Source: Lysobacterales bacterium
GTDB taxonomy: Bacteria > Pseudomonadota > Gammaproteobacteria > Xanthomonadales > Xanthomonadaceae
Direction of reading: 5' to 3'
Assembly (NCBI GenBank): GCA_017302135.1
Contig: JAFLDZ010000001.1
Location: 434,001 to 498,000 of the forward strand
Length of the DNA: 64,000 nucleotides
Shown: positions 39,267 through 44,462 of the stretch, piece by piece
Numbering within the stretch: position 1 is the first letter of the stretch
Layout of the letters: the number at the start of each line of letters is the position of its first letter
Program-made: the position numbers and the translations under genes
Notes under the pieces: generated by a model
The model's database searches: none
What the model was told of the DNA's origin: nothing
Seen by the model: the letters and a program-made list of their open reading frames with translations, nothing else

Positions 39267-40814
39267 ATGACCGACGCACTGACCGCCATCGATACCCTGC
39301 CTTCGCGCGAGATCTGCTTCCGGGCGATGGCCGCGAAGGACCATCGCTTCGACGGTCTGTTCTTCATCGCCGTGCGCAGCACCGGCATCTACTGCCGGCC
39401 GGTGTGTCCGGCGACGGCGCCGAAGCGGGAAAACATCACCTTCTACGCGAACGCCGCCGCAGCCACTGCGGCCGGCTACCGGCCCTGCCTGCGCTGCCGG
39501 CCGGAGCTGTCGCCCGAGGCGCATGCGCAGGTGCGCGAAGAGGCGGTGCGTCGCGCGCTGGCCTTGATCGCCGACGGTGCGCTGCAGGACGGCAGCGCCG
39601 ACGCATTGGCGGCGCGGGTCGGACTGAGCGCGCGGCAGTTGCAGCGGGTGTTCCTCACGCATGTCGGCGCAACACCGCACACGGTGCATGCGACCCGCCG
39701 GCTGCTGCTCGCGAAACAATTGCTGACCGAAACCGCATTGCCGGTGACCGATGTCGCGCTGGCGGCGGGCTACAACAGCCTGCGGCGCTTCAACGCCGCG
39801 TTCAAGAGCGGCTGCGGCATGCCGCCGAGCGCGATCCGTCGGCTGAAATCGGCGGCGTCCGCACCCAGCGGCACACTGACCCTGCGTCTGGGCTATCGGC
39901 CGCCGCTGGATTTCCCGATGCTGTTGCGCTTCCTCGCCAAACGCGCGATCCCCGGCATCGAACGCGTGAGCGACGACCGCTACGAGCGCGTGATCGGCAC
40001 CGCCGATGCATCGAGCTGGATCCGGGTGCGCGCCGCCAGCGAACGTCCGGAACTGCTGCTGGAGATCGGCAACGCCGATCCACGCGCGATTCCGGGCATC
40101 GTGCGCCGGGTGCGGCGCATGTTCGATCTCGATGCCGATCTGCGCGCCGTGCATGCGGTGTTCGCCACGGACCCGCTGCTGAAACAGGCGATCGATCTGC
40201 ATCCCGGATTGCGCGTGCCCTGCGCTTGGGACGGATTCGAACTGGCGGTGCGCGCGGTACTTGGGCAACAGATCAGCGTGGCCGGTGCGACCACGCTGGC
40301 GCGGCGCCTGGTGGAGCACTGGGGCGAGCCGCGCACCGATGCTGCGGCGACGCAGATCGGACTGGATCGCGCGTTCCCTTTCCCGGAACGCCTGCGCGAT
40401 GCGCCGCTGGAAAGCATCGGCCTGCCGCGCACGCGCGCCGCGACCCTGCGCGGGCTGTCGGCGGCGGTCGCGGATGGACGCCTGTCGTTCGATCCGGGAC
40501 AGCCACTGCAGGAGTTCGTCGAATGCGCGACCGCGCTGCACGGCATCGGCGCATGGACGGCGCAGTACATCGCGATGCGCGCGCTGGCGCTGCCGGATGC
40601 TTTCCCGGCCGGCGATCTGGTGCTGCAGCAGCGGCTCGCACCGCCGGGGATCGCACGTCTGAGCGAGCGCGCGACCGAAGCGAGATCGCAGGCGTGGCGA
40701 CCGTGGCGCGCATACGCGGTGCTGCATCTGTGGCATCTGCCCGCAGACATCGCCAGCTGCGGCAGCTGCGGCAGCTGCGGCAGCTGCGGCAGCATGGAGA
40801 CCGCTGCAGCATGA
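39267..40814 (+). CDS. alkA: Ada-type/AlkA fusion: methylphosphotriester sensor, AraC HTH and 3-methyladenine glycosylase
   Basis: 515 residues from the ATG at 39267. The N-terminal Ada zinc domain has C43, C47, C74 and C77 ([19 protein letters not shown]), where one Cys accepts methyl from DNA phosphotriesters. An AraC HTH (about 85-185, [20 protein letters not shown]) and an AlkA glycosylase domain (about 200-490, with helix-hairpin-helix [17 protein letters not shown]) follow. This fused protein senses methylation damage and removes alkylated bases. Residues 497-508 are a four-fold Ser-Cys-Gly repeat. ogt overlaps the stop by 4 nt. Confidence 0.93.
40755..40790 (+). repeat. Four tandem copies of a 9-bp repeat inside alkA
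   Basis: AGCTGCGGC is repeated exactly four times in frame, encoding Ser-Cys-Gly units (residues 497-508) beyond the glycosylase fold and just before the stop. Such short tandem repeats can gain or lose copies by slippage without frame change. Confidence 0.8.
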
Positions 40815-41338
40815 ATACGCTGTTCTTCGAGCGCTTCGACACGCCCATCGGCACCTTGACCATCGCCGCGGATGCGGGCGGTCTGCGCCATATCGAATTC
40901 CCGAGCAATCGCCACCCGGCGGATCGCTACGACTGGGCGCAGGGCGCGCGCGGCGACGCTGCGGATGCGCTGCGCGCGACGCGCGAACAGTTGCTGGAAT
41001 ATTTCGCAGGCACGCGCCGCGATTTCGATCTGCCGCTGGCGCCGCAGGGCACTGCGTTCCAGATGCAGGTGTGGCGGATGCTGGCGACGATTCCGTTCGG
41101 CGAGACGTGGAGCTACGGCGATCTCGCGCGCGCCATCGGCAAACCCCAGGCCATGCGCGCGGTCGGCGCGGCGAACGGACGCAATCCGCTGCCGATCGTG
41201 CTGCCCTGCCATCGCGTGATCGGCGCCGACGGCAGCCTGACCGGTTTCGGCGGCGGTCTGCCGATCAAGGAAGCGCTGCTGCGGCTGGAAGGCGCAAAGT
41301 CGATCTCGGAGATCCAGAAAGGCGATTTGTTCAGCTGA
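40811..41338 (+). CDS. ogt: Methylated-DNA--protein-cysteine methyltransferase (Ogt)
   Basis: 175 residues, start ATG at 40811 overlapping alkA by 4 nt. Active-site motif [10 protein letters not shown] places the acceptor Cys at residue 133; the helix-turn-helix [20 protein letters not shown] precedes it and [20 protein letters not shown] follows. It transfers methyl or alkyl from O6-alkylguanine to its own Cys, once. The C-terminus ([15 protein letters not shown]) is not the usual one of this family. A 106-bp piece of this gene is repeated at 43.9 kb. Confidence 0.95.
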
Positions 41339-41547
41339 CTCCATCCGACCGATCGACTGGACATTCTGTTTCATGATGTCGATCACTTTGCGCGACATAT
41401 AGAGGCATATGCTAGCCAAGTGGTCGAGCGATATCCCGTCCTCGGCAACCCAAGGACCACGTTTCCTGCATGGGATTCCGAATCGAAAGATCGTTCCTAA
41501 AGTTCACGGTCAAACCTATTCGTACTGCAGCCCAAGGAGAGGGACAG

Positions 41548-43689
41548 ATGCATATCTTAACCAGCCCATATCACGCATGTCTCCGGAACTTTGCCGCATT
41601 CCGCAATCGTTTTGCGATAGCGTTTCTACTGGGAATATTCTCGTTGAACGTTATCGGCGCAGCACAAGCCGCAACCACCACATTCCGCCGTGCGATGACA
41701 TGGACAGTGCTTGAACAACAGGCAGGCTACACACACTTGGGCGCCGATACATTCACGAATCCGTATTCGGGCGATACAACCATCGACTTTTTTCTGCCGA
41801 TCCTATGCCTGCGCGTCGATGGTCGCGCCGCTCCGCCAGGCATTTATTTCGATGCCTACAACGGCTGGTCGCGCGGCGAAGCGCGATTGACGCCAGCGAT
41901 CGCCGCAACCGTACTGACATCGCAAGCCCAAGCGGACTATATGTGCAGCGAAACTTTCGGCGATGGCTGGCATATGGCGGAATTCCATGAAGGTCGCCAT
42001 GGCAGCAATTTCAGCCTGAGCGGCGGCTGGACCTATTGGGTTGGCGGAGTAATCCCGAGCGGCCAGCGCTTTTGGGTCGCGATCAACGACCAGCCAGCGA
42101 ATGCGTGGAATTCGGCCGGTAACCTGCCAACGGTCATGGTGCCTAAATTCCTGCCCTCAGATGCTCCTGTTCCCAACCAATATCTGGCCATGTTCCCCGA
42201 AACCACGCCAGCGAGTTCAGTAGACGCCCTCGCAAATGAGCTCTTGCGTGTCTATGGCGGCACCCTGATCGACAGCTTTTCGTCATCGCTTGGATTTTCG
42301 TTCAATGCCAATGAAGCTCAGGCACGTGCAATCAGCGAAGATACACGAGTTGAAAGCGTAGATGAGGACAGCTACGGCCAACCGTTTGTCGAATGGCACC
42401 AGGATCGGGTCGACCAACGTGCGCTTCCACTGAACAGTACTTATGCACCGCCGAACGATGGCTCAGGGGTCAACATTTACATTCTCGACACCGGTTTCCG
42501 TCGGAGTCATAGCGAATTCGGCGGACGTGCGCGCCAAGACGCTGACTTCATACGATTCCTGGGCTCGCGTGACGATTGCAATGGGCACGGCACCGCAGTG
42601 GGCAGTGCCGCAGGTGGTGCCACTGTCGGTGTCGCACCGCGCGCGACACTCATCTCCATCCGCATTGCTGGCTGCAGGGGGAACGCCTACAACCCGCTCG
42701 TGTCCGTGTTCAGTTCGACCATCGTTGCCGGCCTGGATTGGGTCGCGCGCTTCCACCAATCACCTGCGGTGGCAAACATCAGCTACGGAACGCCCCCGGG
42801 GTTCTGGCGACGCTGGTTCAATCTGCGTACGCCGCAGGATCGTGCGGTACGCCGTGCAACGAACGCCGGCGTAACGGTGGTCGCTGCTGCAGGCAACGAT
42901 AACAGGAACGCAAATATCTACAGCCCGGCACGCGCACCAGAAGCGATTTCGGTGAGTGCCACCGATTTCAACGATCGCCGCGCTTCTTTCGGCAACTATG
43001 GCAAGGTAGAGATCTTCGCGCCGGGGGTGTCAATGCGCTTGGCCAATTTCGACACCGACATCTCTTATAAATCGTGGGACGGCACTTCGCTCTCGGCGCC
43101 GATGGTCGCGGGTGCTGCAGCACTCTATCTGCATGACAATCCCGGCGCGAGCCCGTCGCAGGTGCGGGATGCGCTGCTCGCCGCCTCGACAAGTAATGCG
43201 GTGACTGATCCAGGTCCAGGATCACCGAACCGACTTTTGTTCGTAGGTGCCGGCGCACGGCACCTGGGAATGACCTGGACGCGTATGGAGCAACGCCCCG
43301 GCTATGTACACGTGGGATCAGACGGCATCACCAATCCGTACTCCGGCGATACCTCGCCACAATCGTCTCTGCCAGTGCTGTGCCTGCTGATTACAAACGC
43401 ATCTATGCCGTCTGGATTCATACCCGACTATTACAACGGCTGGGCACGAGGTTCAGTCGCAGCGACAACACCTGTGCCAGGTTCCACATTGACCAGCAAG
43501 GCTGCTGCGGATGCGCTCTGTGCCGCATCCTTCGGCGTTGGCTGGCGCATGGCTGAGTTCCATGATGGGCGTTACGGGACAAATCTATCGCTATCGGGGG
43601 GCTGGACCTTCTGGGCCTATGGCCAGTTGCCGGCCGCAACACGGTTCTGGGTATCGATCAGCGACCAACCCGCAAACCCATGGAACTAG
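41548..43689 (+). CDS. Secreted subtilase (S8) flanked by two copies of one accessory domain
   Basis: 713 residues from ATG at 41548 with AAGGAG 8 nt upstream; a signal peptide ends at AQA (about residue 41). Domain A (50-188) and domain B (575-713) are repeats of one another: NPYSGDT, YNGW.RG, GWxMAEFHxGR, LSGGWTxW, RFWVxIxDQPAN. Between them lie an I9-like propeptide (208-276) and the S8 domain with D314 (ILDTG), H347 (NGHGTA) and S514 (GTSLSAP). Codon use is less GC-biased than its neighbours. The accessory domain may be C-type-lectin-like (AEFH, FWV.I.DQ), an inference. Confidence 0.88.
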   Translation: MHILTSPYHACLRNFAAFRNRFAIAFLLGIFSLNVIGAAQAATTTFRRAMTWTVLEQQAGYTHLGADTFTNPYSGDTTIDFFLPILCLRVDGRAAPPGIYFDAYNGWSRGEARLTPAIAATVLTSQAQADYMCSETFGDGWHMAEFHEGRHGSNFSLSGGWTYWVGGVIPSGQRFWVAINDQPANAWNSAGNLPTVMVPKFLPSDAPVPNQYLAMFPETTPASSVDALANELLRVYGGTLIDSFSSSLGFSFNANEAQARAISEDTRVESVDEDSYGQPFVEWHQDRVDQRALPLNSTYAPPNDGSGVNIYILDTGFRRSHSEFGGRARQDADFIRFLGSRDDCNGHGTAVGSAAGGATVGVAPRATLISIRIAGCRGNAYNPLVSVFSSTIVAGLDWVARFHQSPAVANISYGTPPGFWRRWFNLRTPQDRAVRRATNAGVTVVAAAGNDNRNANIYSPARAPEAISVSATDFNDRRASFGNYGKVEIFAPGVSMRLANFDTDISYKSWDGTSLSAPMVAGAAALYLHDNPGASPSQVRDALLAASTSNAVTDPGPGSPNRLLFVGAGARHLGMTWTRMEQRPGYVHVGSDGITNPYSGDTSPQSSLPVLCLLITNASMPSGFIPDYYNGWARGSVAATTPVPGSTLTSKAAADALCAASFGVGWRMAEFHDGRYGTNLSLSGGWTFWAYGQLPAATRFWVSISDQPANPWN

Positions 43690-43752
43690 CTGACTTCGTG
43701 CCTGTAACCAAGGCGCGCATACAAGAAAAAGAATGTCTTCCACAACCAGAAC

Positions 43753-43770
43753 GCCCGGCATGCGCCGGGC
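43753..43770 (+). terminator. Hairpin after the subtilase gene
   Basis: GCCCGGC (43753-43759), loop ATGC, GCCGGGC (43764-43770), followed by ATTTGG. It is 63 bp past the stop and could terminate the subtilase transcript. Confidence 0.55.
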
Positions 43771-43852
43771 ATTTGGATATTCAGTGAGCAATATAGTGTG
43801 TGAGCGGATAGCGCAACCGACTGGCAATGCGTCGTATTGCGGTGCAGATTCG

Positions 43853-44016
43853 AAGAGACGCAATCTCTTGCCGATCGTGCTGCCCTGCCATCGCGTGATC
43901 GGCGCCGACGGCAGCCTGACCGGTTTCGCGGCGGCGGTCTGCCGATCAAGGAAGCGCTGCTGCGGCTGGAAGGCGCGCTGCCGGCGCAGCGCAGCGGCGG
44001 CGATCTGTTCGGGTGA
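43853..44016 (+). pseudogene. 3' fragment of a second ogt, frameshifted
   Basis: From about 43869 to 43976 the sequence is identical to ogt 41190-41295 except for a 2-bp insertion (TTCGCGGCGG against TTCGGCGG), which breaks the frame. Homology starts near 43853 with mismatches. The fragment includes the active-site CCCTGCCATCG codons. After 43976 it diverges and ends in a TGA at 44014-44016, giving a tail that reads GALPAQRSGGDLFG in the reading frame of the fragment's 3' part. There is no start codon, so it is not a gene. Confidence 0.85.
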
Positions 44017-44105: not shown

Positions 44106-44462
44106 TCAGCGGATCGACGGGTCCAGCATGCGCAGCGCTTCGTGGATGTCGACCTGACCGGTGCGCGCGATGTCTTCGCTGGTGTAGACGCGTCCGCTGA
44201 CCGGTGCGCAGCGCTGCGGTTTGCCGTCTTTGGTGGCGCGGACATTCTGCGCTGCGGTCACGCGGGAGCCGGTGCTGCGCAGGCAGGTGCGGGCGGGTTC
44301 GCGCGGCGCGGTGGTTTCGGCGGCTGTGGTTTCGGTGGTTTCGGTGGCTTCGGTGGTCTGGACGGTTTCGACCTCGCCGGCTTCCGTGGTCACGGTAACG
44401 GTCTGGGCAACGGCGGCACCGGCTAGGAAAGTCAGCAGGGCGGCAAGCAGGAGGCGGGTCAT
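44106..44462 (-). CDS. Small exported protein with Thr/Glu repeats and plug-like C-terminus
   Basis: 118 residues. Signal peptide LLLAALLTFLAGAAVAQ. A Thr/Glu-rich stretch (VQTTEATETTETTAAETTAP) follows, then a domain with two cysteines (CLRSTGSRVTAA, QRCAPVSG). The C-terminal 29 residues (GRVYTSEDIARTGQVDIHEA LRMLDPSIR, split here) resemble the start of a TonB-receptor plug, where a similar motif sets a serine, an aspartate and the helix LRMLDP. It is too short to be a receptor. Function unknown; perhaps a periplasmic regulator or partner. Confidence 0.65.
   Translation of the reverse strand: MTRLLLAALLTFLAGAAVAQTVTVTTEAGEVETVQTTEATETTETTAAETTAPREPARTCLRSTGSRVTAAQNVRATKDGKPQRCAPVSGRVYTSEDIARTGQVDIHEALRMLDPSIR

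Follow-up and report, generated by a model that had tools for sequence, protein, structure and literature searches.

What is the domain that appears at both ends of an otherwise ordinary secreted protease, and what could it do there? The question is raised by a subtilase gene on the forward strand of a 64,000-nucleotide stretch of DNA (hereinafter, the window) from Lysobacterales bacterium, a member of the Xanthomonadaceae (assembly GCA_017302135.1, contig JAFLDZ010000001.1, positions 434,001 to 498,000). The encoded protein of 713 amino acids has the domain order D-I9-S8-D (coordinates in Table 1), where D is the name used here for the repeated domain, with its residues cited in domain numbering, and D1 and D2 are its N-terminal and C-terminal copies. 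D is a real extracellular module that is uncatalogued in the family libraries searched and has a confident but unmatched structural model. The overall interpretation, for which the chances of being right or wrong seem evenly balanced, is that the protein is made as a precursor with the layout signal-D1-I9-S8-D2, that the mature S8-D2 enzyme would be anchored by D2, and that D would be an undescribed ligand-binding module.

The likeness between D1 and D2 is far beyond chance: a BLASTP alignment contains no gaps and 76 identities among 139 residues (55%; E 1e-55). The shared motifs are separated by a constant offset of 525 residues, namely, NPYSGDT (at 71 and 596), MAEFH (143 and 668) and DQPAN (181 and 706), and the strands and helices predicted for D1 and D2 match at the same offset in a weak full-length model that was built from 7 sequences only (predicted local distance difference test, pLDDT, 54) and was not used for domain arrangement. 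A preliminary description of this DNA, made from the letters alone, had noticed the duplicated segments, their common motifs and an I9-S8 core with an intact D314, H347 and S514 between them, and all of these observations hold. A search of the genome to which the window belongs detects no further D-encoding site.

The protease itself is ordinary. Residues 305-550 match Peptidase_S8 (PF00082) in Pfam with an E-value of 1.1e-36, and the catalytic triad, together with the oxyanion residue N450, is intact. The closest solved cores are of the aqualysin I type (PDB 4dzt, 2b6n and 5wsl; phmmer E 3.3e-67 for 4dzt), so by sequence the core is a proteinase K/aqualysin-type S8 protease; an NCBIfam scan of the protein yields protease models only, all under their cut-offs. 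The match to Inhibitor_I9 at residues 237-275 is below the threshold (E 0.048, 14.8 bits vs the Pfam cut-off of 21.2), and the same region aligns with the I9 domain of a Plantactinospora subtilase (locus L046) whose own I9 match has an E-value of 1.6e-11. Because the core alignment starts at residue 281, the border between the propeptide and the mature enzyme falls between D1 and S8. The window protein thus shares with the aqualysin I/proteinase K subfamily the triad, the core, the position of the propeptide and a possible C-terminal extension, but differs in carrying D before the propeptide and again after the core.

Maturation by removal of the propeptide is established for the aqualysin/proteinase K family. 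Under this scheme, the precursor would be exported as a secreted proteinase K/aqualysin-type protease, and the I9 propeptide would help the core fold after export and then be cut off near residue 276. The same cut would also free D1, leaving a D1-I9 fragment and the mature S8-D2. D2 would then tether the mature enzyme to a surface or an insoluble substrate, whereas the D1-I9 fragment may hold the inhibitor, or else the precursor, at that location; D would thus serve as an interchangeable targeting piece, an extracellular ligand-binding module. The preliminary description had proposed that the two copies could clamp a surface or a substrate, or else keep the enzyme inactive until one of them is removed. 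With D1 located ahead of the propeptide, and so expected to depart with it in ordinary maturation, the mature enzyme is unlikely to clamp anything with two copies. The second proposal survives in part, in that the removable piece includes D1, but the inhibitor within it is expected to be I9.

Searches of Pfam, NCBIfam and PHROGs assign the D copies to no family, with only scattered chance matches among 61 members, and a literature search on the motif MAEFHDG found nothing. The only profile matches of D in the PDB are to an antibody heavy chain (E 0.003), which cover 53 positions of the unrelated immunoglobulin fold and were judged to be chance. The AlphaFold2 model of D obtained from the family alignment is of high confidence (pLDDT 97.2, predicted template modelling score 0.92) and consists of strands 4-11, 14-18, 38-43 and 59-67, a helix at 79-90 and then short strands. 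A Foldseek search of the PDB with this model produces no match (best E 1.3, template modelling score 0.14), VIA-align returns no Z-score of at least 2, and a comparison with viral structure models is likewise without a match (best E 2.5). The Foldseek search itself works, since it finds S8 proteases at an E-value of 1e-10 from the far poorer full-length model. The unmatched search does not prove, however, that the modelled fold is new.

These searches bear on the label of a lectin-like domain (C-type lectin or jelly-roll fold) that the preliminary description had attached to the repeat, together with the suggestion of a structure search against the PDB. D resembles the Lcl_C domains (PF07603, DUF1566), which are C-type-lectin-like, in having a helix with the pattern A..C followed by GWR[ML] (GWRMAEF vs GWRLPT). 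The likeness is superficial: when D was compared using hhalign with Lcl_C (PF07603) and FGE-sulfatase (PF03781) alignments drawn from relatives, the probability was 0.4-0.8% (E 0.07-0.17) and did not change with six circular permutations of the profiles. The fold search and hhalign, permuted profiles included, do not support the lectin-like label, and the identification of D as a C-type lectin was rejected on their account; a weak, remote kinship to C-type-lectin-like families is still conceivable.

Additional indications come from the company that D keeps. A scan of genomes with D2 as the query identifies 80 loci, and outside the genome of the window there are 83 D-bearing open reading frames (ORFs): 60 short ones with a single D, 15 longer ones with a single D and 8 with two copies (locus L039, with its D1 divided by an insertion, counts as three D here). 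D ends at most 1 residue from the C-terminus in 70 of the 83 ORFs. The secreted single-D proteins are chiefly from Streptomyces. Elsewhere, D follows I9-S8 in Micromonospora and Plantactinospora (L045, L046 and L078), occurs as a D-D tandem in Pro-kumamolisin/S53-type proteins of Rhodanobacter and Dyella, is present in two copies in a fasciclin protein of Anaerolineae, and is linked to RCC1 and CARDB domains (RCC1-CARDB-D) in Thiodictyon and to a ricin-B lectin in two Streptomyces proteins (L150 and L050). In an uncultured bacterium, D follows a protein kinase and a hydrophobic segment (L077, 2817-4652) and is presumed to be the external sensor domain. This variety of unrelated, mostly extracellular partners suggests a ligand-binding accessory module. 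For a carbohydrate-binding role in particular, the two proteins that join D to ricin-B are a circumstantial hint. The notion of the same binding domain at both ends of the protease thus stands as far as the binding role is concerned, which fits these occurrences, but not with respect to lectin identity.

D is rare and patchily distributed. It is found in actinobacteria, proteobacteria, myxobacteria, cyanobacteria, Chloroflexota and Deinococcota, and in one of 369 sampled Gammaproteobacteria (the genome of the window counted), in the query genome only among 296 Actinomycetota, and in 18 of 398 genomes of the order. No D was detected in viral contigs or phage collections, which speaks against a phage origin or phage-borne spread of the domain. 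Across phyla, there are no convincing conserved gene neighbours, only antisense shadow frames and unrelated genes.

In an alignment of 61 D copies, G28, W60, E98, G113 and W140 are invariant, whereas the block GWRMAEFHDG, R127, W129, the pair D134-Q135 and N138 are nearly so; C40 and C86, conserved in 98% of the copies, probably form a disulphide. D2 retains all 39 of the 39 best-conserved positions, whereas the D1 of the window is unique among the 61 sequences in altering D101 (D101E) and also carries R95H and G73A, a pattern that fits D2 being the working copy in this protein. In a cysteine-rich subfamily (L053, L055, L058, L059, L063, L069, L072 and others), the final NPW is replaced by NCW, and the N[PA]Y.G[DE]T loop has additional cysteines close by, so that an extra disulphide is probable. 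The pattern of conservation could also point to a small enzyme or a metal-binding catalytic domain, in which case the protein would have two activities and the lone Streptomyces proteins would consist of this enzyme by itself. E98, H100, D101, R127, D134, Q135 and N138 are nearly invariant along with WRMAEFHDG across several phyla, which is tighter conservation than in many binding modules, but D is a short domain that is often duplicated and terminally placed; it occurs beside lectins and on a kinase ectodomain, has altered residues 95 and 101 in the D1 of the window and is matched by no enzyme structure. An enzymatic D is accordingly regarded as improbable.

There is a precedent for the role proposed for D2. 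The C-terminal extension of the halolysin SptA binds insoluble protein substrates (PMC3158780); the likeness to D2 would be one of proposed role. In aqualysin, by contrast with the fate proposed for D2, the C-terminal pro-sequence is removed in processing (PMC3158780). D2, and D1 as well, could similarly be pro-sequences that are required for secretion or folding and are lost in maturation, as in aqualysin I. This is an unlikely explanation given that D constitutes the whole protein in many species and occurs in secreted and lipoprotein-like contexts without a protease, which argues for a function of its own. D most likely binds a surface or substrate ligand, although several points weigh against this putative function and against an anchored mature enzyme: the near-invariant polar residues would equally fit a catalytic or metal site, D has no structural relative in the searches of the PDB and the viral models, the full-length model is too poor to reveal contacts between domains, and, by the aqualysin precedent, D2 might be lost too.

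The D-I9-S8-D architecture is rare but not unique; because D is absent from the family libraries searched, this order is not widely annotated. Lysobacter sp. Root916 (L039) and Micromonospora sp. CB01531 (L040) each have a protein of this layout, 60-64% identical to that of the window. The former differs in an insertion of about 45 residues in D1, and the latter in an in-frame TAA (L040, 6066-6068) within the S8 core, between the catalytic His and Ser, so that, barring a sequencing error at the stop, L040 would be a pseudogene. The I9-S8-D subtilases mentioned above are about 40% identical overall and lack the N-terminal D. In Dyella (L037 and L038), D also brackets an unrelated core X in a second kind of sandwich (order D-X-D); a homologue in the genus of the window (L083) has a visible C-terminal D, and a Deinococcus plasmid protein (L151) has the order D-X, with the N-terminal D only. 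Pfam scans of two of these proteins, L037 and L151, left the large, unannotated core X without a match.

A tree was built of 47 D domains, with the inserted loop of the L039 N-terminal copy omitted. In it, all three D-S8-D proteins have their N-terminal copies together in a single group (94/76, not starred), which adjoins the N-terminal copies of the D-X-D proteins. This grouping by position rules out a recent duplication within the gene and implies that the sandwich was probably already in place when the gene passed between proteobacteria and actinobacteria. For the C-terminal copies of these three proteins, a single clade is rejected (p-AU 0.036), and exchange of such copies has probably taken place. 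The recurrence of the two-ended layout with two unrelated cores, and the fact that the N-terminal and C-terminal copies are distinct lineages, so that two-endedness looks retained, would favour a clamp or latch in which D1 and D2, both still attached to the core, pair with each other or grip a substrate together. Such a device appears very unlikely because I9 lies between D1 and S8, such that standard maturation parts the two copies; furthermore, one-ended D-D tandems exist (in the S53-type and fasciclin proteins), the Deinococcus protein has a single N-terminal copy, and the scattered C-terminal copies speak against tight co-evolution of D1 and D2.

Four myxobacterial proteins (L060, L068, L073 and L075) lack the first strand (AMTWR) at the start and have it instead after the closing NPW-type motif, and are natural circular permutants of D; some of them look like lipoproteins. 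Permutation would be the expected remnant of a D-D tandem that was subsequently trimmed. From it one would expect the two ends of D to lie close together in space; the tandem copies in L042 and L048, joined by a few residues only, agree with this. A broader scenario, offered only tentatively, is that D combines a new fold with a promiscuous extracellular binding function, has spread laterally among six bacterial groups and became permuted in Sandaracinaceae-type myxobacteria, and that its N-terminal and C-terminal lineages are placed around unrelated cores to give one targeting signal to the shed pro-fragment and the mature enzyme alike.

The gene seems to have reached its present location recently. 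Near-perfect direct repeats bracket about 2.55 kb that carry the subtilase, and the G+C content of the insert is 53-62% vs about 65-70% in the flanks. In seven loci of the same genus (L153-L159), the gene after ogt is a homologue of the small gene at 44106-44462, and no intervening subtilase was found; the alignment with L153 continues through the empty site. The direct repeats and the seven empty sites indicate that foreign DNA with the subtilase was inserted behind ogt recently. The intact ogt of the window ends in a tail (41296-41338) that does not align with the relatives, whereas the orphan right-hand copy runs on into a tail that does; judging from these alignments, the insertion gave ogt a replacement 3' end. 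Integration at the 3' end of ogt looks like a single crossover of a circular molecule or a site-specific insertion. The ada/alkA-like ORF that precedes ogt runs into a short coding repeat at its end (window positions about 40750-40810).

Table 1. Features of the subtilase gene and its borders (nucleotide positions in the window).
Feature	Position	Strand	Basis
Left repeat copy (direct repeat of roughly 125 bp) at the 3' end of ogt	41172..41295	+	sequence comparison
Ribosome-binding-like AAGGAG before the ATG at 41548	41535..41541 (about)	+	read from sequence
Whole gene, D-I9-S8-D subtilase, 713 aa	41548..43689	+	ORF
Signal peptide (predicted) of residues 1-41, with a hydrophobic stretch before AQA/A	41548..41670	+	sequence; helix 7-33 in model; cut site inferred
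D1, N-terminal copy, residues 50-188	41695..42111	+	BLASTP, family alignment
I9-like propeptide, about residues 206-276	42163..42375	+	sub-threshold Pfam match, alignment with L046
Expected autocleavage near residues 275-277	within the I9/S8 border	+	inferred from aqualysin alignment
Peptidase S8 core, residues 281-565, with D314, H347, S514 and N450	42388..43242	+	Pfam, phmmer, residue check
D2, C-terminal copy, residues 575-713, last residues of the protein	43270..43686	+	BLASTP, family alignment
Terminator-like GC-rich inverted repeat followed by T-rich DNA	43751..43774	+	read from sequence
Right repeat copy, an orphan ogt 3' end that marks the right border of the insert	43851..43976	+	sequence comparison

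An ordinary protease core thus reveals a conserved extracellular domain that is absent from the family libraries searched. With its 140 residues, D also exists as a free secreted protein and should be practical to express and crystallise. The question that this architecture raises is why the same module would be present on the shed inhibitor fragment and on the mature protease, on the two sides of a propeptide that removes itself.
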